A DNA stretch of 64,000 nt, from the NCBI GenBank assembly GCA_009602725.1, contig WELB01000370.1, positions 1 through 64,000 of the forward strand, given 5' to 3'. Made by a program: the position numbers and the translations under genes. Numbering within the stretch: the stretch's first letter is position 1; every line of letters begins with the position of its first letter. The notes below the pieces were generated by a model that had not been told where the DNA came from, searched no databases, and saw only the letters and a list, made by a program, of their open reading frames with translations. Source of the DNA: Spirogloea muscicola (taxonomy: Eukaryota > Streptophyta > Zygnematophyceae > Spirogloeales > Spirogloeaceae). Below, one piece after another: positions 3,368-62,450 of the stretch.

Positions 3368-5937
3368 TCACGACTCCATGACGCGCCGGAACATGCCAGA
3401 CTTGCACTCAGATGGTGACAAGAAGATGCACTTGCTGGGGCTGCCATCGGCCGCCAGTCGCACGCAAGAGACAAGTTCGAGCCCAAGGCGCTGCAGAGTT
3501 GTCACTGCCGCATCACGGAGAGCTACGCCCTCCGTGCCTAGCCACCTGCTCGCAAAGGAGACAAGGAGCTGGCACACCCGCGGCGGCGCGTCCCTTGCAC
3601 CCCACGCCTCGATCATGTCAAATTCCGCCCCCTCCACAGACAGCTTGAGCACGTCCACGCGGGCATGGCCAAGGCCAGCCATTGCCGCCGCCAGCGTCGT
3701 CACCTGAACAGCAACCTGCTCCGGCCCCAGCTCGTACGGTGCCGCAACAGCCGGCAATATTGTGAAGGTGCCCACCGGCTTTCCAGATTGCAACACTGCG
3801 CGCACGGTTGCGTGGCCGTTGTGCGCCCCCAGGCAGGCGTCGTGGATGACAACGTTGTCGGGCAGCAATTGCGCGCCAATGAACTCCTGAGAAGGGGCGC
3901 CAAGCGGCGTGGCACCGAAGGCGTGCACAGTGCAATTGTACCGCCCGGGAAATGTCGACTCCCAAGACAGGTCCTCACCGATGCCGCCCGAATACACGAC
4001 ACAGCTGTTGCCAAGGAACCCGTTGAGGAAGGCTGGCCACTGACCGGCGCCAGAGCCCATGATTGATGGGGCGCCCAGGCGGCCGTGAAGGCAGATCAGC
4101 GCCGGCGTCGGGCCATCGTAGGCTGCTGCGGAGCCCTGCAGGGCTGCCATCTCGGTGACGCACCTGCCATAGCCCCGCGAACCGACATCAAGGCGCGATG
4201 CGGCGGCCTCGGGGCCAGCCGCTGCATCGAAGATGGCCTCCCAGCCAGCTTCCCAGGGCCCACGTGGGTCGCACAATTCCACGCCGTCGCCGTGGTCAGC
4301 CCAATCGCCGTCCACGGCGCGCACCAGGGCTAGCGCCTCGTCGCCAACCGCCGCTGGTTTGCATGGCCGGCACTTGGCGCCATTCATGAAACCCCGGCTG
4401 CTCAGTGACACAACTTGCACGCCACGCGGCCAGCCATAGCCCCGCATGCTCAGCACGCAGAAGGGAAGGTCAACCTTTGCCACCGCCACGCCACGCACCT
4501 CCAGCTGCGCCCGAAGTGCTCTTTCCGAGTTTAGCCATTTGTAGCCAGCGCGCTGGATCTCGGGTAGCAGGCTCAACCGCGCCAGTGCAGCGCTGCTTGT
4601 GTTCATGTCTCCCATGCCAAAGCGGTCGTTGTAGCCGCCGTAGCTGCAGCCATGCGGCACGGTGTACTTGCGTGGATTGTACGCCGCCAACGAGTGTGGC
4701 GGTCCCGTCCAGAACGTGTCCACACGTGTACGCAGCACCCAGCTGTAGCTCACCCCGGCTGCTGCCTCGCGGTCGCTGATAAGCTTCAGGCAGCCTTCAA
4801 CGAGGTTGAAGTACTGCAGCAGGCCCTACGGAAGCGCAGCAGGCGGGCACCCAGGGACAGGGCGAGCAGTGCCAGATGAGCAGAATATATACAAGTAGAA
4901 TATACACACACCAACTCTTAAACCTCGACATGACACATAAACATGCTCGTCTCAGGTTCTTCATGGCATCGTACTTGCCTGACATGCACACAATAGCAGT
5001 CCGTGAAGACCTGTATGGATCTGAAAATTCTACAGCTCCTGAAATCGAAACGCTCAAGCGGAAATCTTGTGCCCCCAGGATAAGGGCTCACTGTATTCCA
5101 CCTGCAGGCCGTTCGGGGACCCTGATGCCATGAGCACACCCTTTGCAGCGTCGAGGTCCCCGATGGGCGTCTGCGCAAAGAAGCGCAGTGAGACGAGGTT
5201 TTGTGCGCCAAGCAGGGCAGTCATCTTGTGCGTGTTCTCATCCACCGGCACGTTGATGAGGACGTCAGCAGCCTCGAACGCACGTAGCACATGCTGCTTG
5301 ATGGTGGGTCCAGTGAGCTCAAACATGCGCGCCCCGCCCACAAGACAGATGGCCACCCTGTTGAACTGCAAGAGGGCGCGGAAGCTGAGGCTGTTGAGCT
5401 ACTTGGCTTTAGTAAGGAATTGGCCTCAGGTGAGGCGACTGGTCAAGCTGCGCAACTTGAACGAGCTGAGCGTGCCGCTCTGCCGTTCCGCTGCAGATGC
5501 TCCGAGCTGACACGCCGGCAGCACGCAGGCCTTTCGGCCATGCTATCATCAGGTGGTGGCAACGGCAGGATGCGCCGCCCACCTTGGCGCTGTGCACGGC
5601 GGAGGTGCGCTCCTCGTCCAACAGCGTGGGCTCGTGAGCCGGGGAAGGCGGCTCTGCGGCGTCACGCGCCGCCGCCGCCAGCGACGCCGCGCCGCTCGCC
5701 TGCGGGACGGGGCCTCCTTCTGCTCAGCATGAGCTGCTGCGCCCGAGATGGGATGAAGCTGGCAGGGTGGCTGGAAGTCGTCTGCGGCGGCACCTGCAAG
5801 CCGTCGCCGACGAGAAGGTAGGGCAGGCCGGTGGCGGCGGCGATGGCGACCAGCGCGGCGCAGGCCAGCAGGCGGGCGCACGCGGGGCCCCCCGTCGGCA
5901 GCCACAGCTGGGGCCCCGAGGCCGCCGCCGCCGCCAT
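3368..5937 (-). CDS. DUF7796-type / METTL24-like fusion, predicted type II membrane protein
   Basis: Three exons on the minus strand: 5937-5583, 5365-5102 and 4825-3368. They are separated by GT-AG introns of 217 and 276 bp. Exon 1 encodes an Ala-rich start and a membrane anchor at about residues 20-44 (ARLLACAALVAIAAATGLPY), the layout of Golgi type II enzymes. Exon 2 begins FNRVAICLVGGARMFELTG. Exon 3 joins in phase to give NGLQ/GLLQYFNLVEGC, then RVDTFW and VPHGCSYGGYNDRFGMG. I recall these as hallmarks of the plant and algal DUF7796 family, which is probably glycosyltransferase-like. The last 230 residues resemble the METTL24 methyltransferase domain (GGIGEDLSWE, VHAFGATP, DVLKLSVEGAEF). 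Exon 1 is 355 nt, so the membrane-anchor frame and the frame entering exon 2 differ by one base in a GGC-rich run near 5660-5740. This is either an assembly error or a real frameshift. The substrate is unknown. A single N lies upstream at 5990. Confidence is high for exons 2 and 3 and lower for exon 1. Confidence 0.8.
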
Positions 5938-6194: not shown

Positions 6195-6400
6195 GCTACA
6201 ACAAGGGGACCCACTTCCAGGAGCCCAGCATCTCTGATCTGCGGCTGCTTAGCAGGGGTTACTGAGTGTCTCGTAGCAGCTTTGTTTCTGTTACTTAGCG
6301 CTTCCCCTGGCCCCCTTCTCGTACTCTGTTCATTCTTTTTCGGGCTGGTTGTTCCAGCCCCTCTTCTCAATGGGCGAGCACTTTCTTCTACAACCTTGCG
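6195..6400 (+). mobile_element. 5'-truncated LINE 3' end with hairpin
   Basis: The frame ends FQEPSISDLRLLSRGY with a stop at 6263-6265, the conserved C-terminus of this LINE family. It is followed by the 3' UTR (GTAGCAGCTTTGTTTCTG, CTTAGCGCTTCC) and a hairpin at about 6338-6358, ending CAATGGGCGAGCACTTTC. The same tail and UTR occur at 46100-46305. Confidence 0.7.
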
Positions 6401-9274: not shown

Positions 9275-9942
9275 GTCGTGCTAATATGTCACCATTTTGA
9301 CTCTTAGTCAGCATCACGTGGTGGGAGCATGTCCCTGCTACCGGGCCGTATGCGGGTCCAACACCGCATCCGAGGGCATGGCCTGGTGCACCCAGGTGGC
9401 CCTCTTGGAAAGCGTGCTGCTTACTCAGGTGGCCAGTCCTTGTGGGTTCCCGTGGGTTCTCAGGTGGCCCCCTTGACGGGCTTTACTCGTGGCCCTCGAG
9501 CCTTGCTCAATGTGTTACCTAGGTTGATCTACCGAGAGGGTTAGGACTTGGTCAGCGCGAGGCTCGCGCATGGTCAATCATATGACGACAGCACATGGTC
9601 CACGTTCACTTGCTGGTCAAGCAGGCGATGGCTGAGAGGAATTTGAAAGCGCGTCCAAAGTGAGAAGTCTTTCTATTTTAAAGTGAGAGCAAAGTGAGAG
9701 GTCAGCCCAGGAAAAGAATGAACAAAGTGCTGCGATGGCCCGGCAACGGGACATTGAATCGGGACATTGAACCGGGACGGTGTTCCGGCTCATTTTTCCG
9801 AACGGCGGGAACCGGGGGGGTCTTTTCAAAAACTGCCCGAGGGGAGCTGCTTGGCGCGGCCAATCACTCTGCGCCACCGAGCGCAGCACTTATCTTCCCC
9901 AATCACCTTCACAGCGGCGCGGCCGAGGCAACCGGCACCTGC
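9275..9942 (+). repeat. 668-bp segment, copy 1 of an apparently identical pair
   Basis: By eye identical to 40586-41253 (constant offset 31311), from GTCGTGCTAATATGTC to AACCGGCACCTGC, after which the two sequences diverge at once. No terminal inverted repeats are seen. The right part carries CCAATCAC-type boxes in GC-rich DNA (about 9860-9905). This copy ends about 360 bp before the start codon of the gene at 10305. Confidence 0.85.
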
Positions 9943-21530: not shown

Positions 21531-21976
21531 NNNNNNNNNNNNNNNNNNNNNNNNNNNNNNNNNNNNNNNNNNNNNNNNNNNNNNNNNNNNNNNNNNNNNN
21601 NNNNNNNNNNNNNNNNNNNNNNNNNNNNNNNNNNNNNNNNNNNNNNNNNNNNNNNNNNNNNNNNNNNNNNNNNNNNNNNNNNNNNNNNNNNNNNNNNNNN
21701 NNNNNNNNNNNNNNNNNNNNNNNNNNNNNNNNNNNNNNNNNNNNNNNNNNNNNNNNNNNNNNNNNNNNNNNNNNNNNNNNNNNNNNNNNNNNNNNNNNNN
21801 NNNNNNNNNNNNNNNNNNNNNNNNNNNNNNNNNNNNNNNNNNNNNNNNNNNNNNNNNNNNNNNNNNNNNNNNNNNNNNNNNNNNNNNNNNNNNNNNNNNN
21901 NNNNNNNNNNNNNNNNNNNNNNNNNNNNNNNNNNNNNNNNNNNNNNNNNNNNNNNNNNNNNNNNNNNNNNNNNNNN
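21531..21976. other. Assembly gap (446 N)
   Basis: Unknown bases. Translations spanning it are meaningless. Confidence 0.99.
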
Positions 21977-23029: not shown

Positions 23030-23310
23030 CTTTCTGGCCCCCTAGCCTCTCTGATTTGCGGCTGCTTAGCAGGGGTTACTGAGTGATTTGTAGCTGCTTT
23101 CTTTCTTTGTTTGCTTTGTCTTCTTAGCGCTTCCTCTGGCCCCCTTCTCGTACTTTGTTCATTCTTTTTTGGGCTGGCTTTTCCAGCCCCTATCCTCAAT
23201 GTGCGAGCCCTTCTTCTTTCTGGCCCCTTCAGACCTTGTCAATATCTTTCGGGCTGGCCGTTCACAGCCCTTGCCCCCTTTGGGAGAGCCACTTTCTTTC
23301 TGTGAAAGAG
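23030..23310 (+). mobile_element. LINE 3' end followed by a second hairpin module
   Basis: FWPPSLSDLRLLSRGY ends at 23080-23082, followed by the UTR with CTTAGCGCTTCCTCTGG and a hairpin at about 23170-23190. A second module lies directly downstream (GGGCTGGCCGTTCACAGCCC at about 23250-23270, then GGGAGAGCCACTTTC). Confidence 0.75.
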
Positions 23311-29950: not shown

Positions 29951-31889
29951 ATGGCGCGGCTGCCCCAAGGAAGCCCCGCCGGCGGCTCGGACCTCCACGC
30001 TCACGCTGCGCGCCGGCTCATGGAGGCCGCCTCCGCTCTCAGCCTCACCGTCGGCAACCTCGCGGCTCTCGCCGAGCTGCTGTGGCTCCAGAGGAGCTCT
30101 GCTTGCCAGCAGGAGATGTGCCACGACCTCGCTCAGCTGGCACCATGCGCAGCTGCAGCTAGGTACAGCTCTCCGCACTTGGGCGCAAGACTGCCCTTAG
30201 CAGTAGCAAGTCTTTTGTGAAGCCCTCCACACGGCTGCTTGAACATATCCGCCCATCTGCTCAGTTGCAGCCTGGAACCTTGCTGTGCTTAAGTGTGCTG
30301 CATTGTGCGATGAAGCTGCTTCAATGTCTGGCGCTCGCGGTTCCTTCAATTCTTCGTCCTCTTCTACTTGTTGCAGAACTTTCGAGGCATCAGCAGCCAC
30401 GAGTACAACAAGCACTGGGCAGAGGCAGCTGGCAGATCTCACGGAAACACTGCTGCAAGCCCAAGAGCAGTTACTGGAGTTCCATGTCCTTGCAGGCCAT
30501 CTGGAAGTTGCCAGTACACAAGCTTCTTCTCCCTCTCCCTCCCTTGATCGAGGGGGCCATCTGGGAGCATGCAGCAGCCAAGGACCTTCCTTCCTTGGCC
30601 CACATACGGAACCCCCGAGCCCAATGTCTGCGTCGACAACCTCCAGCAAGAAGAGCACGTCTCACCTCGCTGGATACTCAGCCCTGCTACGCCTGAAGGT
30701 GGAGGAGGATGTCAGCTTGCAAGCCAGTGCCGATAGGGCGACGGATGAATCACACTGCAACGAGGGAGCTGTTGTTCTCAACCAGTATGCTGACGAACGT
30801 GGCGGAGCCAAGCGGACCAGATGCTCCAATGGCGACAGGAGGGATGGCAGTCGCCAATCTCCAAGAAAGTGAGTGCTACATGCATTTGGGTGTGGTCAAT
30901 TGTATTGAGCATGAGCTTGCTCACGCACGAGAACTCTGAGCTCGTCAACATCGACACGACAAAACTGTCTCATTGCATCGACTTTGGACGTCATCTCAAA
31001 AAGAAGAGCTGGCACGGTGTGTGAGCGGCTAGCTGTGGCAACTTTCCAAACCACATGTGTACTAACACCTTCAACATTCAACTTTTGCAGACCAAAGGTG
31101 CCCACTAAGGAGATACACGTGATAGTCCAAGAGCCCTTTGACGAGAAGCACATCCCTGACGATGGTTGGAGTTGGCGCAAATACGGCAGGAAGCCCATCA
31201 AGAGCTCGCCAAATCCTCGCAATTACTTCCGCTGCAGCCTGGAGGACTCTGACCAGCCATGCCTGGCAAAGAAGAAAGTGGAGGTTTCTAAGGACGACAA
31301 GAATGTGTTTGTCGTCACCTATCTAGGCTATCATACCCACGCTGCCCCTCCAAAGCCAATCACGATCTCTCTCATCAGCCAGACTGGGGGCCCGCCCATT
31401 GACATCGGTCCAAGAGATCCTCATCCGCCACCCAGAGGAGGACCAAGCACTGCCGCACTTCCGCATACGAGAGCTCATCAGGTGTTGGGGCCTGCACCAG
31501 CAACTTCAAATGCATCAAGTGGTGTGCCCGTGGACCCATGGATCACATGTGAGCAGTACACACATAAGGCTGATGCAGATTGCAACATGAACATCGCAGC
31601 CATCTTCGAGGGACAGAATGCAGGCTATGCGGATGTCACTGCAGCGGGCTCAGGGGCGGAAGACATGGAGGACTACAGTTCTACACCAAGCTCCAGCAAG
31701 TCCTTAGAATTCTCCCCGGAGTCTGAGGCTGTCGAATCCTTCTTCAGCTGCCAGTCAGAAGCAGGTCCAGAGAAGGCACATGTCTTGCACTCGCAAGATC
31801 ACTGGCGTCTGCCTTACGAAGAAACAGCAGAACCAGGAAATGGCTTTGCGCTGCTAGGTCTCTTAGACTTCAGCGATATGTGGAGCTAA
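29951..31889 (+). CDS. WRKY transcription factor, single-domain variant, 500 aa
   Basis: Three exons: 29951-30162 (donor AG/GTACAG), 30377-30868 (acceptor TACTTGTTGCAG, donor AAA/GTGAGT) and 31091-31889 (acceptor ACTTTTGCAG). All phases match and the spliced frame is 1503 nt. WRKY proteins are plant transcription factors that bind W-box DNA in the nucleus. The domain spans about residues 255-322: W-S-WRKYGRK at 261-269, where the family norm is WRKYGQK; PIKSSPNPRNYFRC; then zinc ligands C283, C292, H316 and H318. The C-x8-C-x23-H-x-H spacing is close to group II/III finger spacings but identical to neither. The PIKSSPNPR segment resembles group IIe. The N-terminus has helical stretches (LMEAASALSLTVGNLAAL, DLTETLLQAQEQLLEFHVL) and no second WRKY domain. 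The C-terminus is acidic and Ser-rich, consistent with an activation region. The intron usually found inside this type of domain is absent. Confidence 0.9.
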
Positions 31890-40585: not shown

Positions 40586-41253
40586 GTCGTGCTAATATGT
40601 CACCATTTTGACTCTTAGTCAGCATCACGTGGTGGGAGCATGTCCCTGCTACCGGGCCGTATGCGGGTCCAACACCGCATCCGAGGGCATGGCCTGGTGC
40701 ACCCAGGTGGCCCTCTTGGAAAGCGTGCTGCTTACTCAGGTGGCCAGTCCTTGTGGGTTCCCGTGGGTTCTCAGGTGGCCCCCTTGACGGGCTTTACTCG
40801 TGGCCCTCGAGCCTTGCTCAATGTGTTACCTAGGTTGATCTACCGAGAGGGTTAGGACTTGGTCAGCGCGAGGCTCGCGCATGGTCAATCATATGACGAC
40901 AGCACATGGTCCACGTTCACTTGCTGGTCAAGCAGGCGATGGCTGAGAGGAATTTGAAAGCGCGTCCAAAGTGAGAAGTCTTTCTATTTTAAAGTGAGAG
41001 CAAAGTGAGAGGTCAGCCCAGGAAAAGAATGAACAAAGTGCTGCGATGGCCCGGCAACGGGACATTGAATCGGGACATTGAACCGGGACGGTGTTCCGGC
41101 TCATTTTTCCGAACGGCGGGAACCGGGGGGGTCTTTTCAAAAACTGCCCGAGGGGAGCTGCTTGGCGCGGCCAATCACTCTGCGCCACCGAGCGCAGCAC
41201 TTATCTTCCCCAATCACCTTCACAGCGGCGCGGCCGAGGCAACCGGCACCTGC
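40586..41253 (+). repeat. 668-bp segment, copy 2 of an apparently identical pair
   Basis: By eye identical to 9275-9942. Its left edge abuts the N at 40585. Its right edge meets AGTGGCTCCCATGCCTGC, which belongs to the paralogous block that also starts near 60410. It lies 109 bp before an ATG at 41362, in the same orientation as copy 1 lies before the gene at 10305. Confidence 0.85.
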
Positions 41254-41259
41254 AGTGGC

Positions 41260-43200
41260 TCCCATGCCTGCATGCTCACAATGCAGTCCCCTGCTCGTGC
41301 GAGCGCCCGCGGCTGGCTCCGCGTCCGAGCTCGCCTCGCGTCGCTTTGCAGCACTACCGTCATGGCCAACTCAGCACTGGTGCACAGAAACAACGGCGTC
41401 CCGGTGTTCACGGTCATCTTAACCTGCGTGGTGAGTCGCATTCAGCCAGAATGCGACTCTCGTGAGCACTTCCGGGCATCATGCCAGTCAGCTGAATATG
41501 TGCTTTCCAAGATGTCAATCGTTGAGCGTGATCATACCTTCTTTCTGATATGCTTGGATGGATGCCTCGGACTGATGAGAAAGGAAAGGTGCACACATTT
41601 CAGCAGAGGACCACTGGTCAAGTGCAGAGGGTTGCTCAAGCGGTGAACGCCTGCAGTTCGAGTGTCGCTGTTGCACTCAGGCACCTCTGTCTGTTTTGTA
41701 GGCTGCGAAAGCTTCTGCATTGGGAAGGGGGACCGCCCAAATTGTTTGTGCCATTGGGATGCATCTCTATGGCTTCGTAGGATCGATACAAGCCCTCGGA
41801 AGGCGGACTGTCTCTCCCATGAGCATTTTCCAGGTGAGCTAGCGATGTCTAAGTAGACGCTAAGTGCTCCAAACAAAGTCCAATCAGTCGACTATTACCT
41901 CAAGTGCCATTCTGGGCCACTTTAAGCAATCTGAATATTGGACCGTTGGCTTCTGGATCTGAGCTCAGTGGCTTGTGCAGAAGGCACCGACTGAATTGGA
42001 CGTCACGGACTATCCGCCCGCGGATGATGAGAGAGGCTATCATGTATTTCAACTGGACAACCTCCTGTGTACATGGAAGCAATTGCAGAGCTGGCTTAAT
42101 GATGTATAGGTAGCAAATCTGTTTAGACTTCCAGCAAATTCTGGCTGCTAAGAGTGTCATCTGTTGATTGATATAAAATGCATGTGGGACTCTGTTTAAC
42201 GACATTTCAAAAGTAAGGAAATGGTCTCAGTGATAGACAAGACGCTGAGATGTCTTGTTCTTGTGTCTCACTACCTTCAGTGTCTGGCTTGGTCTGCCAG
42301 CCGCATGTCAAGGAGCCTTTAGCTGAAGTTGGTCAGGGCAACCATATGCCGCCTGCACTGCCGGCATCCTGAAGTTGGACAATGTCTGCAAGACGTGGGT
42401 ACGGACCCCCATGACTTGCTTGCTCAAATACTACAATTCCAACTCCCACCAGTAATACAAAAACCATATGCAAATCCAGTAAAGTACTCCTAGGCCTCCA
42501 ACGTATAAAATGGCGTCACATTGCACAAAAATGAAGCTCCTACAGAGAGCCTGATAGGAAGATTCATGTGTGTCACGAGGAAGACGAGTAACAGATGTGC
42601 ATAGTGTTTGAAGCTGGCTGCCCTTTGTCCTGTTGTGATGGACCTTTCCTATGATCCAAGCTTGATCAATATTATCACACATGTCATTACAGCAAAACGA
42701 AGGACCCACTGTCTAGATCTCTACTGAAGTGTCTGGCCTTCTTCTCCAGCAAGTGTGCGACAATGCGTCGGTGGCTATTTTATGCAAATCTGACATAAAT
42801 GCTGAGGTGGCTGCACAGGTGGATACATAAGGCGGACTTGCTGTGGGCTAGTTGCGTGCACGGTACCTTCGGCTCAGCTTCGGTAGGGAGAATACTGCAA
42901 TTGCCGTGGCAAGACGGCATCGGTGCATCACCCTGGTGCACGCGACGCTCGAAAGCGGCCCTAAAGCAAATAGAAGGTCCATATGCGAAAGTCAGGAGTT
43001 TTGACTCATATCATCGCCATGGCGAGTGTTGGTAGGCCATTTGTGGGGGTATGGACATCGGTCAAAATTCGTCCCGGGCGACACTGCGATGAGGGCGGGG
43101 CAGCCAAACGGCCAGACGGCCTGCCCCAACAAACAATGTATTCTTCGCCTGACCGACATTACATGGAGCGGAGGGCCGATGCTGAGACATCTGATCGTCA
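41260..43200. repeat. Paralogous block, copy 1 of three
   Basis: Collinear with 60405-62450 over nearly 2 kb at about 80% identity, and partly with 48720-50000. A short plus-strand exon is conserved: 41362-41430, MANSALVHRNNGVP then VILTCV, with a GTGAGT donor. Conserved minus-strand frames include LLPCTQEVVQLKYMIASLII (about 42100-42030), PLSSDPEANGPIFRLLKV (about 41960-41920) and TRLPRDTHESSYQALCRS (about 42600-42540). Both strands keep open frames, so the direction of the gene is undecided. No known domain. Confidence 0.4.
42953..42958. other. Empty site for the hairpin module inserted at 62112
   Basis: AAGCGG, within CGCTCGAAAGCGGCCCTAAAG, aligns to the AAGAGG that flanks the insertion in the paralogous block. 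There is one copy here and two there. Confidence 0.75.
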
Positions 43201-46020: not shown

Positions 46021-46310
46021 TGGCTTTGCTATGCGCCTGGCCGTCTCGCTGCAGAGGTCCATGGCCCGGGCGCTGCACCTTCGTGCCGGCAGAGCCCTCG
46101 CTGCTGCCTCAGGCTCTGGCCAGGGGACCCACTTCCAGGAGCCCAGCATCTCTGATCTGCGGCTGCTTAGCAGGGGTTCCTGAGTGTCTCGTAGCAGCTT
46201 TGTTTCTGTTACTTAGCGCTTCCCCTGGCCCCCTTCTCGTACTCTGTTCATTCTTTTTCGGGCTGGTTGTTCCAGCCCCTATTCTCAATGAGCGAGCACT
46301 TTCTTTGCTA
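46021..46310 (+). mobile_element. 5'-truncated LINE 3' end
   Basis: The frame MRLAVSLQRSMARALHLRAG, then RALAAASGSGQGTHFQ and SISDLRLLSRGS, ends at a stop at 46181. The UTR with CTTAGCGCTTCC and a hairpin at about 46257-46277 follows. The last residue is S instead of the usual Y. This is the clearest example of the family terminus. Confidence 0.75.
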
Positions 46311-46689: not shown

Positions 46690-47100
46690 TTTGTTCCACT
46701 GGCAGTCGACGTGCACGGAGCCTTTGACACTAAGTGGCTTGACTTGCTTCACCACCTTGCGCAGCGGGCAGCGGCCCGCCGTCGCGGGCAGCAGGGCGAG
46801 CAGCCCGGCTTCAATGTCGCCGGGTCCCTCGCTTAGGTCTTCCGCATGCGCTTGGCCGTCTCGCTGCAGAAGAAGGGCTCGCCTATTGAGGATAGGGGCT
46901 GGAAAACCAGCCCAAAAAAGAATGAACAAAGGACGAGAAGGGGGCCAGAGGAAGCGCTAAGAAAACAGCGGTCCCTTGCATTCGCAGTTCACTTGCGCGC
47001 CGGCCGTGCTTTGGCGGCGCCCTCCGGCTTCCGTCAGGGCGACGTCTTTCCACCGGCTAGCTACTCAGACTCGCATCTCCTGACTAGAGGTTACTGAGCG
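46690..47100 (+). mobile_element. Third LINE 3' end, split by a reversed module
   Basis: The frame KWLDLLHHLAQRAAARR and FRMRLAVSLQ stops being LINE at 46869 and resumes at 46966 as RSLAFAVHLRAGRALAAPSG, ending SYSDSHLLTRGY. The 96 bp between them (46870-46965) are a reversed hairpin module. Confidence 0.7.
46870..46965 (-). mobile_element. Hairpin module nested in a LINE tail
   Basis: AAGAAGGGCTCGCC, then GGGGCTGGAAAACCAGCCC and GAGGAAGCGCTAAGAAAA. Removing it restores CTGCAG/CGGTCC, which encodes LQRS as in the related copies. CAG on both sides is the only visible target duplication. Confidence 0.7.
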
Positions 47101-47660
47101 TCCTCTGACTGAAAGAAAGAAGAAAGAGCTCGCCCATTGAGGATAGGGGCTGGAACAGCCAGCCCAAAAAAGAATGAGCAGAGTACAAGAAGCCCAAGAA
47201 GAAGGGGGCCAGCGAAGCACTAAGGCGAAGCACTAAGAAAGAAGCAAACAAGAAGAAACAAACTAGAGGTTACTGAGCGTCCTCTGGCTGAAAGAAAGAA
47301 GAAAGGGCTCGCCCATTGAGGATAGGGGCTGGAAAAGCCAGCCCAAAATAGAATGAACAAAGAACGAGAAGGGGGCCAGAGGAAGCGCTAAGAAAACAAA
47401 GCACACAAAGAAAGAAAGCAGCTACAAATCACTCAGTAACCCCTGCTAAGCAGCCGCAAATCAGAGAGGCTAGGGTCCTGGAAGGTCCCCTGGCCAGAGC
47501 CAGAGGCAGCAGCAAGAGCCCTGCCGGCACGAAGGTGCAGCGCACGGGCCATCGACCGCTGCAGCGAGACGGCAAGGCGCATGCGAAACTCTGGCTGATG
47601 TCCTTTGGGCTGGCCTTTCCCAGCTCTCTCTCTGTCGGATCTGAGGCTCCTCACTCGTAC
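47100..47660 (-). mobile_element. Reversed LINE 3' ends with hairpins
   Basis: Modules lie at about 47125-47200 and 47300-47400. The longer copy runs from MRLAVSLQRSMARALHLRAG near 47580 to SLSDLRLLSRGY near 47430. ACTAGAGGTTACTGAGCGTC at about 47083 recurs at about 47262, so a stretch of about 180 bp was duplicated. Confidence 0.7.
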
Positions 47661-55409: not shown

Positions 55410-56177
55410 TCAGTAACCACGGGTCAAAACATAAAGGTCGCTAATCGATGCCTGAATACTAGATGTCAGATACGAAGCCCTTCTGCCACCAACTAGAGCT
55501 CGGCCAGCTTTCTGGTGCAAGGCATTAGCCTGAGCACGCTGCAAACAGGCCGAAACACGTCGTCGCAAGAAAGACAGATATGCAGCTGGCAAGCCCAACT
55601 CAAACGGAAACACATCTGCACGACGTGTGTAGCCTAGATTGGCAATGTTTTGGAGGAGGGTGTGGAAACGAGGACCCAGACAACCAAAGACGTCGATTGC
55701 CGCTGGCAGGAGCTGATCGCATTGAGGGTAGTCGGAGTAATGCTGCAGCTTTCTTTGTTCTGCAACGCCCACTGCGTGACCAGCGATGTGTGTGGATGCT
55801 GGTCCCTTGTACGCCTCCGTTACAACAACTTCGACCAGGGCCCGTGGTCCTCCACCAGGTTGCACGCCCACAATGTCAAGTGTGCGGCGATAATGACGTC
55901 CCTGGGCGTCCGTGGTAATAGGCATGATATCGTTGACTTCCACGACTGCACGGTAGCCGGCGTCGCGCATCAAACCCGCCAGGGCATCGCGGAAGAGGTT
56001 GTGGATGCCCACCACTTCTGGCCCAGTGGGGCATCTTAGCATGTGAGTGGCGAGCTCAGCACCCTCTGCACGGAAGCCGCACTTGCACTGCCGCACCCCG
56101 ATCAGGCAGTTAGGTGGGAGGCCCCCTTTGGAGGAGCTCACTTCTCCTTTTATCATGCAGCCATTTGTAGTAGCCAC
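55410..56177 (-). mobile_element. LINE C-terminal open frame, longest copy (about 255 codons)
   Basis: An uninterrupted minus-strand frame, cut off at its 5' side near 56190. In order it contains a CCHC-like cluster (QCKCGFRAE, THMLRC), HNLFRDALAGLMRDAGY, RRTLDIVGV, ALVEVVVTEAY, GVAEQRKLQHYSDYP, IDVFGCLGPRFHTLLQNIA, a basic tail (FLRRRVSACLQRAQANAL) and the terminus SISDLYVLTRGY. Spacing of D, E.V and AE..K fits a PD-(D/E)XK-like nuclease core. C-terminal nucleases of this kind are known from some non-LTR retrotransposons. The assignment rests on pattern only. There is no reverse transcriptase in this copy. Confidence 0.65.
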
Positions 56178-59935: not shown

Positions 59936-60105
59936 AAAAAGAAGAAAGGGCTCGCCCAATGAGGATAGATGCTGGACAAGCCAGCCCAAAAAAGAATGAA
60001 CAAAGAACGAGAAGGGGGCCAGAGGAAGCCAGAGGAAGCGCTAAGAAAGCAAAGCACACAAAGAAAGAAAGCCGCTACAAATCACTCAGTAACCCCTGCT
60101 AAAAA
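59936..60105 (-). mobile_element. Reversed LINE 3' UTR with hairpin
   Basis: AAGGGCTCGCCC, GCTGGACAAGCCAGCCC, GGAAGCGCTAAG and GCTACAAATCACTCAGTAACC, identical in order to 47300-47450. The tail is cut right after the stop and first codons (CCCTGCTA). Confidence 0.7.
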
Positions 60106-60404: not shown

Positions 60405-62450
60405 CCACTGGCTCCCATGCCTGCACGTTCACAATGCAGGCCCCTGCTCGTGCGAGCGCCCGCTGCTGACTCCGCGCCCGAGCTCGCCCCGCGTCGTCTT
60501 GCAGCACTACTTCCATGGCCAACTCACCCTTGGTGCACAGAAACAACGGCGTCCCGGAAGTGGCGGTCATCTTGACCTGGGTGGTGAGTCGCATTCAGCC
60601 AGATTGCCACTCCCGTGAGCACCTGTGCATCAACTGCATTCGTGCCAGTCAGCAATTCTATGGATTCCAAGCTGTCATGCAGGGATGAATGCCTCAGAAC
60701 GATAACAAAGGCAAGGCGCACACTTTCTCAGCTGGGTCCACTGGTCAAGTGCAGAGGGTCGCTCAACTTTCTACGCCTGCAGATTGAGTTTCGCTGAAGT
60801 CCTCGGCAGCTCTGTTTGTTTTGTAGGCTGCAAAGGCTACTGCATTGAGAAGGGAGACCGCCCACGTTGTTGGTGCCCTTGGAATGCACCTCTATGCCTT
60901 CGTAGGATCGATACAAGCCCTCGAATGGTGGACTGCCTGTTCCATTACCACTTTTCTCAAGGTGAGCTAGCGATCGGTCAAGTCTAGGTAGACGCTTAGT
61001 GCTCCAGAAAAGATCAGTCGACTGTACCTTCTAAGTGCAGTTCTGACCACTCTTAAAATCTGAAATGTTGGACCGTTGGCCTCTGGACATGAGCTCAGTG
61101 GCTTGTGCAGAAGGCACCAACTGCAGTATTGGATGTCACGGACAATCTGCCCACGGACGAAGAAGGAGGCTATTGTGACTTTCAGTTGGATAACCTCCTG
61201 CATACATGGAAGCAACTGCAAAGCTGGCTGAGTAATGCATAGGTGGAAGATTTGTCAGATTTCTAGCAACTACTGGCAGAATGTCATTCTTTGATTGATA
61301 TAGGATTCCTGTGGGACGGTGTTTTGCGACACTTCTAAAGCAAAAATTTCAGTCGTAGACAAGAGCCTGAGGTGCCTATTCCTGTGCTTTACTAGCTTCA
61401 TGTTCTGGCTTGGTCTACCAGCCTAAAGGACCTTATAGCTGAAGTTGGTGAGGGCAACCATAAGCCGCCTGCACTGCCAGCGTCCTGAACTTAAATCTTA
61501 GTATGACGTGGGTACGGACCCCCATGACTTGCATGCCCAGCTTCAACAACATCGACTCCCACAGTAAGACGGAATGACCATATGCAATGTACATATGAAG
61601 AAACACTCCTGCGCCTCCAACGGTTGAATTGGCGTCACAGCGCACGCATTTCAAGCTCCTACAGAGAGGCTGAGAGGAAGCTTCATGTGTGTCACAAAGA
61701 AGACGAGTAACAGATGTGCAGAGTGTTCAGATATATTTGCCGTTCGTCCTGTTGTGTTGGACCCTTCTTGAGGTCCAAGGCTTGATCATTGTTGTCACAG
61801 AAGTCATTACGCAAAAGGAAGGACCGGTTGTCCAAATCTCTACCGAAGTATCTGGCCCTGTGCTCCAGCAAGCCTCTCTGTCGTGCGGTATCGCGTCGGT
61901 GGCTCATCTTTGTCATATGAATATGACAAGGATGCAGAGGTGGCTGCACAAGTAGATTTGAAGGCTGACTCATAGTTGGGTCGTCTGATGTAAAGAGAGT
62001 TGCGAGCACGATACCTTCAGCTTAGCTTCGGTGTGGAGAATACTTTATCAGCAGTGGCAAAAACGGCATCGGCGCATCGACCCACGCTGGTGCACGCGGC
62101 GCTTTAAGAGGAAGAAAGAGCTCCCCCATTGAGGATAGGGGCTGGAACAGCTAGCCCAAAAAAGAACGGACAAAGTACGAGAAGGGAGCCAGGGGAAGCG
62201 CTAAGAAAAACAAGCACAAGAAGAGGCCCCTGAAGCAAACCGAGGGTCCGTTTGCGCAATTCAGGAGTTCTGACTCAAATCGTCGCCATAGCGGGTATCG
62301 GTCGGCCATCTGTGAGGATATGGATATTGGTGGAAATGCAGGTCCCGGGCGACACAGGCCATGCGGACGGAGGGAGCCAAATGGCCAGACGGCCTGCCCT
62401 GACAAACAGTGTGAGTCGTCGCCGGACCGAGGGTAAAGGAAGAGACATCG
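60405..62450. repeat. Paralogous block, copy 2 of three
   Basis: Partner of 41260-43200. Plus-strand exon 60515-60583 (MANSPLVHRNNGVP, then VILTWV, donor GTGAGT) is equivalent to 41362-41430. Minus-strand frames conserved with copy 1 include LLPCMQEVIQLKVTIASFFV (about 61220-61160) and LLEHRARYFGRDLDNRSFLL (about 61875-61815). It carries a hairpin module at 62112-62220 that copy 1 lacks. Gene direction and function are undecided. Confidence 0.4.
62112..62220 (-). mobile_element. 109-bp hairpin-module insertion with target duplication
   Basis: A reversed module (GAGCTCCCCCATTGAGG, GGAACAGCTAGCCC, GAAGCGCTAAG, ending near CAAGCACAAG) is flanked by AAGAGG at 62106-62111 and 62221-62226. The paralogous block reads through with one AAGCGG at 42953-42958, which is the empty site. 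This shows that the shortest modules moved as such. Confidence 0.8.

Follow-up and report, generated by a model that had tools for sequence, protein, structure and literature searches.

Extremely 5′-truncated insertions of an R2-like, probably RLE-type LINE with a hairpin tail in Spirogloea muscicola

The 109-bp module within the 64,000-nucleotide stretch of Spirogloea muscicola DNA analysed here (the window) was confirmed to be the 3′ end of a LINE, and neither a SINE nor a passive repeat. We consider it highly likely that this LINE is autonomous, that it is most likely of the single-ORF type with a restriction-like endonuclease (RLE), and that it is inserted by target-primed reverse transcription with frequent early stop. 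According to the mechanism we propose, the LINE protein would recognize the hairpin tail of its own RNA, the LINE endonuclease would nick dispersed sites, and the nicked strand would prime reverse transcription from the tail; synthesis would often end within ~100 nt and so leave fragments such as the focal module. A LINE source was one of two offered by the original prediction, and it is borne out by a parent carrying the module as its 3′UTR, together with a sharp 3′ boundary, varying 5′ ends and target duplications above chance. The new points are the parent LINE, which is R2-like and probably of the RLE type, the count of tails and the extreme early stopping.

The focal insertion and other copies in the window

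The module was described beforehand as reversed and lying between two AAGAGG words, and exactly 109 bp separate these two words (Table 1). The collinear paralogous block, said to lack the module and to have a single AAGCGG, was found as described. The paralogous blocks align from 60406-62103 with 41253-42949 and from 62228-62430 with 42959-43156, and when the insert and one duplicate were removed the focal locus aligned end to end with its paralogue at a score of 108, versus 23 with the insert kept; the join giving the score of 108 is one base off on each side, with one element base kept and one flank base dropped. The proposed 6-bp target duplication held only in part. The AAGAGG pair is present, but four of its six bases (TCTT in the sense of the element) also match the parent LINE (...TTTCTTCTTGTGC) adjoining the truncation point, and because these four bases could belong to the element the duplication at the focal locus is 2-6 bp. 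Moreover, AAGAGG is a common word, with 51 occurrences in the window against 39.6 expected; therefore the focal pair alone is weak, and the claim of duplication rests on the statistics of 70 copies given below. A genome search with the focal locus gave at least 41 matches including itself, most of the others being 95-97% identical over about positions 30-145 of the query (40 of the 2,547 first-look candidates were scored; the assembly is 153 Mb).

Table 1. Features of the LINE copies and of the focal target site, in positions of the window
Position	Strand	Feature	Evidence
62112-62220	-	Extremely 5′-truncated LINE copy, 109 bp, 3′UTR tail, subfamily ending GAGCTCTTTCTT	Similarity and parent 3′UTRs
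62106-62111	.	Target duplication, copy 1, AAGAGG	Sequence, empty-site alignment, word count
62221-62226	.	Target duplication, copy 2, AAGAGG; 4 of 6 bases could equally be element	Sequence, parent alignment
42953-42958	.	Unoccupied target site of the paralogous block, with AAGCGG once	Block alignment
62139-62157	-	Tail hairpin remnant GGGCUAG-CUGUU-CCAGCCC; family form GGGCUGG, 5′ arm altered in the focal copy	
46870-46965	-	Second truncated copy, 96 bp, CTG on both sides; empty-site relatives L041, L082 and others in part	Block alignment
47299-47471	-	Copy that includes the stop codon and the C-terminal end of the coding sequence	
23044-23212	+	Copy running beyond the stop codon (..SLSDLRLLSRGY, stop)	
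6227-6387	+	GAGCACTTTCTT subfamily copy	
46145-46305	+	GAGCACTTTCTT subfamily copy	
59942-60102	-	Truncated copy	
55410-56177	-	Family A LINE, open C-terminal part, 255 aa, CCHC and RLE-like region, ending SDLYVLTRGY, stop	

More than 35 modules had been predicted in the window. A profile built on the final 64 nt of the tail found 38 in round one and 55 by round three, with nothing on the reversed sequence; the same profile matched 339 times in all the DNA sampled, part of which had been chosen for carrying the tail, again with no match on the reversed sequence. The 96-bp copy is absent from the relatives of its host block, the whole junction being ungapped in L041 and L082 and mostly so in others. 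Rfam families gave no match in the window at gathering thresholds.

A run of 446 N at 21531-21976, either an assembly gap or withheld sequence, splits the window and adds spurious open frames to the list of ORFs. The segments 9275-9942 and 40586-41253 (668 bp) are 100% identical at a distance of 31 kb, whereas identity between neighbouring paralogous blocks is about 75-80%.

Number, boundaries and target duplications of the copies in the genome

The 22-mer CCCCTATCCTCAATGGGCGAGC occurs exactly 2,780 times in the genome, and a 32-place tail pattern occurs 10,517 times at three or fewer mismatches; both reversed controls gave 0. Boundaries were determined in the first 70 of 100 places listed among the 2,780 exact-tail places, and none was dropped. 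With the tail counted as 9 nt, the copies were 36-587 nt long (median 110.5), 34 of the 70 being no longer than 100 nt and 53 no longer than 200 nt; the upper lengths are bounded, since the references of most subfamilies were 600 nt long and 40 of the 70 copies had some 700 nt of sequence upstream, and N runs in the assembly may have depleted the sample of long copies. The 5′ ends vary continuously over this whole range, the fullest 5-nt bin holding 5 of the 70 copies. At the other end the boundary is sharp: conservation falls from 97-99% at +2/+3 to 76% at +8 and approaches background by +11, the information of the tail falls from ~1 bit at +8 to ~0.1 at +11, and the complete NCTTTCTT is present in 41 of the 70 copies. 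The modules were also said to have no poly(A), and indeed A5 was found within 20 nt past the tail in none of the 70.

Target duplications were likewise expected in other copies if the modules are mobile. The longest exact match between the 5′ and 3′ flanks reached at least 7, 8, 9 and 10 bp in 31, 23, 15 and 8 of the 70 copies, whereas 4,830 mismatched pairs gave expectations of 4.2, 1.3, 0.35 and 0.16. The remaining 39 copies are without a duplication of 7 bp or more, which may reflect decay, deletions or duplications that were short from the start. No common insertion target was seen by eye in the flanks of the 70 copies, and the duplications vary from copy to copy. Taken together, the sharp 3′ end, the continuous 5′ ends and the duplications are as expected of target-primed reverse transcription that leaves 5′-truncated copies.

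Within the 31 copies with duplications of at least 7 bp (L039-L117), the duplication starts with CT in 15, against a CT background of 8%, and 29 have either C or T as the first base. This may reflect a target preference, annealing of the tail, or a bias of the CT-rich tail, for which there was no control.

These boundaries bear directly on two other explanations of the modules. Passive spread, in which modules without mobility of their own would have been multiplied by segmental duplication or by hairpin repeats recombining with each other, would suit the paralogous blocks and the many repeats of the window, but it is contradicted by two empty sites (42953-42958 and the relatives of the block around 46870-46965) at copies flanked by duplications, the sharpness of 3′ ends beside variable 5′ ends, and duplications far over chance in the 70 copies; we find it barely credible. 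The second alternative, also raised by the original prediction, is a SINE with its own promoter and a fixed 5′ head that borrowed the LINE tail, the short copies then being SINE copies. Many copies are indeed SINE-sized (median 110 nt), and the tail is common to several families, as in the SINE/LINE pairs described in PMC3747384. However, there is no fixed 5′ boundary, since the 5′ ends run continuously from 36 to 587 nt with at most 5 of the 70 copies in any 5-nt bin, and the longer copies run collinearly into LINE coding sequence; as a weaker point, ARAGORN found no tRNA in the window. A SINE head was therefore rejected, and a SINE origin of the modules appears very improbable.

The parent LINE and its type

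Longer tail copies extend collinearly beyond a stop codon and enter a coding frame whose last residues before the stop are variants of SISDLRLLSRGY, which leads to the parent element, here family B. Three copies fetched whole (L069, L070 and L071) have ~3.9 kb in common at 99.9% identity, ending in the module; of two more long copies, L072/L120 and L073/L121, only the ends were sampled. The longest sampled copy, L069 (~4.1 kb), has a 1299-aa ORF starting at GCCATGG, followed by a 122-nt 3′UTR that is the module: after the stop codon it carries the hairpin GGGCUGG/CCAGCCC and then the end GGGCGAGCNCUUUCUU, without poly(A). L069 and L072 have a 5′ start in common, which suggests that they may be full length, and L073, L071 and L070 begin further in; the large open-frame values of some copies are partly inflated by runs of N.

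A second family, A, was represented by L118, which has the same architecture as family B and a 5′ start in common with L122. At least seven copies with a 1267-aa frame were present among the matches listed for family A (L118 being the one read), with 15,550 first-look candidates for its C-terminus. Its 3′ end differs in L118, L119, L122 and the window copy, reading TTGGCCACACATGGCC...AATATACACG in L118. Neither family showed a credible ribozyme at its 5′ end, where two weak Rfam matches were obtained for each, far under the gathering scores.

The family B protein has N-terminal C2H2-like motifs, a reverse transcriptase (RT), and a C-terminal CCHC with an RLE-like motif. The RT matched Pfam RVT_1 at 7.5e-16 in family B and 1e-18 in family A. 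The N-terminal motifs of family B gave Pfam matches under the cut-off (E 0.08-0.34), and the N-terminus of family A matched zf-C2HC_2 at 4e-4, with 20.5 bits against a cut-off of 27. In a PDB search R2 proteins came first for family B alone (6.1e-7), and the profile of both families gave R2 at 2.8e-13 versus L1 ORF2 at 0.0019, while with family A alone group II-type RTs were slightly ahead of R2 (2.9e-4 vs 7.2e-4); closeness to R2 is thus judged against PDB sequences only. The proteins of the two families are 44% identical, and the residues of the C-terminal CCHC and of R-x-D-x14-D...K (with the downstream K/Y) are invariant between them. From its motifs only, we read this C-terminal region as a putative restriction-like endonuclease; no Pfam model matched it in family A, family B or the window ORF, and the single-sequence AlphaFold model of the C-terminal ORF of the window was unusable (pLDDT 34.1). 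Presumably, C-terminal regions like those of families A and B also occur in unnamed animal RT proteins. Judged by these sequence comparisons, the parent LINE is R2-like and probably of the RLE type.

The type assignment has to be weighed against Dualen/RandI, which combines an AP endonuclease with an RLE, and whose AP endonuclease could have been missed through 5′ truncation or divergence from the Pfam model. Dualen is reported from all the core-Reinhardtinia species examined in PMC8226300, and a diverged LINE endonuclease could escape the Exo_endo_phos model. Against this, neither family matched Exo_endo_phos at E values up to 1, which speaks against Dualen/RandI only if the sampled 5′ starts are complete; the starts are paired in both families (L069/L072 in B, L118/L122 in A) and, if true, leave no room for an AP endonuclease; and the whole genome gave only 10 Exo_endo_phos matches (27 candidates) versus 150 RVT_1 matches among 985 candidates, the latter from retroelements of any type. 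A Dualen/RandI parent is accordingly improbable.

The hairpin tail and comparison with known LINEs

The modules were described beforehand as sharing a GGGCTGG/CCAGCCC stem-loop and a conserved tail. At least five tail families (B, D, E, F and G, with one listed copy each for E, F and G) follow a stop like that of SDLxLLxRxY, and they have in common roughly TTGTCCATTCTTT-GGGCTGG-loop-CAGCC. When folded as single strands, two subfamilies of B gave z values of -4.5 and -3.0 and family E gave -4.1; much weaker values were obtained for the focal copy (-0.9), family D (-0.65) and family G (-0.7). A candidate outer helix, GUUCAUU/AAUGGGC in family B, was seen in the folds of three tails.

We then counted pairs in 59 tails, namely 58 of 71 kept rows and the focal copy, 13 kept rows having been dropped by eye. 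The commonest pair was kept in 46-57 of the 59 rows for the middle five pairs of the stem, and in 29 and 15 of the 59 for the end pairs. In the same 59 tails the named pairs were 70.8% paired, against at most 54.3% when the register was slid. Compensatory changes in the stem, which the original prediction would have expected, were no more frequent than in shuffles: seven pairs had double changes versus 6.2 in shuffles, 211 of 500 shuffles being at least as high. The covariation score was 0.096 versus 0.087, with 33 of 500 shuffles as high, and RNAalifold predicted 0 pairs on the tail alignment. A scan of column pairs in 54 dereplicated tails (from 202 rows with eight or fewer gaps, of the 339 matches) placed no helix among its top pairs. 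Structural constraint is therefore not demonstrated, because the double changes are about as frequent as in shuffles and the covariation score is only slightly above them; many rows of the alignment look decayed, which weakens the covariation test in either direction.

The folding results also bear on a variant explanation of the short copies, namely that the LINE protein inserted, in trans, stable RNA fragments from the 3′ tail of its transcript. This would fit the 34 of 70 copies no longer than 100 nt, near the length of the 3′UTR, as well as the three of six folded tails that are more stable than shuffles. However, such fragments lead one to expect a preferred 5′ end, of which there is none, and part of the 5′ arm of the hairpin is missing in 6 of the 70 copies, whereas a template fragment bound through its hairpin should retain that arm. 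We regard insertion of fragments in trans as unlikely, and keep to early stopping on the LINE transcript.

PMC4176376 places R2 with the stringent-type LINEs, which depend on a 3′ tail of their own, and reports a 3′UTR requirement for R2Bm and R2Dm. R2 is also the element with a solved target-primed insertion complex (PMC10499050). As described in PMC5678591, the one ORF of RLE LINEs consists of N-terminal fingers, RT, CCHC and RLE, and site specificity is usual, though not universal, among them (PMC5678591, PMC4640811). R2, NeSL, Dong/R4, CRE and Utopia are alike in layout to the present element, with a single ORF, N-terminal zinc-finger-like motifs, and a CCHC and RLE-like C-terminus, and R2 proteins are nearest to the RT in the PDB profile search. 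In contrast to the R2 group, the element inserts at dispersed sites instead of one specific site, and the CCHC spacing in family B is CX1CX12HX3C, versus CX2-3CX7-8HX4C given for RLE LINEs in PMC5678591.

With the stringent UnaL2, ZfL2-1 and ZfL2-2, the likeness lies in a conserved 3′ hairpin with a fixed tail, the lack of poly(A), and 5′ truncation. Copies of UnaL2 are 5′-truncated. The original comparison with UnaL2 thus stands for the conserved tail with its sharp end and without poly(A), but not for the protein, which is closest to R2 among PDB sequences and probably of the RLE type, with no AP endonuclease found. Unlike UnaL2, with its TGTAA repeats (PMC3747384), the element has no tandem repeat in the tail. 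By analogy with these three LINEs we infer that the RT may recognize the stem-loop of the tail.

In the green lineage, the 2013 table in PMC3747384 gives L1, RandI and RTEX as the LINE families of green algae, and for relatives of Chlamydomonas PMC8226300 describes L1 and Dualen among others. L1/Zepp, RandI/Dualen and RTEX come from the same host lineage as the present element, and tails of RandI are also shared with SINEs (PMC3747384). The green-algal LINEs of the 2013 table end in simple repeats, apart from 5 of 15 L1 families entered with none (PMC3747384), whereas family B ends in CTTTCTT, and by domain scan the families described here are without AP endonuclease. The open-access literature searched yielded no account of a green-algal RLE-only LINE, which is weak evidence for novelty.

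These comparisons allow a broader proposal, which we hold tentatively and judge to be slightly less probable than its opposite: that there is a green-lineage superfamily of RLE-only R2-like LINEs that lost site specificity, has a common hairpin tail in five or more divergent families, and took the place of most AP-endonuclease LINEs in its host, and whose RT often stops within ~100 nt, so that over 10,000 early-stop insertions, down to copies of ~36 nt without the 5′ arm of the hairpin, form a natural library. If a dispersed, high-copy relative of R2 does exist here, thousands of natural insertions would give access to its endonuclease preference and truncation behaviour. The short tails, moreover, account for an abundant hairpin repeat that is easily taken for a SINE, a MITE or a regulatory RNA.

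Some minor observations concern other genes of the window and genome. In the ORF at 3368-4753 on the reverse strand, a DUF7796 domain (4.6e-72) precedes a weak match to FkbM methyltransferase (4e-4, under the cut-off). RuBisCO small-subunit matches lie at four places in the genome, each split over two pieces, and with the WRKY matches they make a green-lineage host very probable. A WRKY transcription-factor gene is present at 30984-31889 on the forward strand; 14 control genomes, a set that does not probe other eukaryotes, gave no WRKY match, and this genome gave 25, five of them on one contig (C21).
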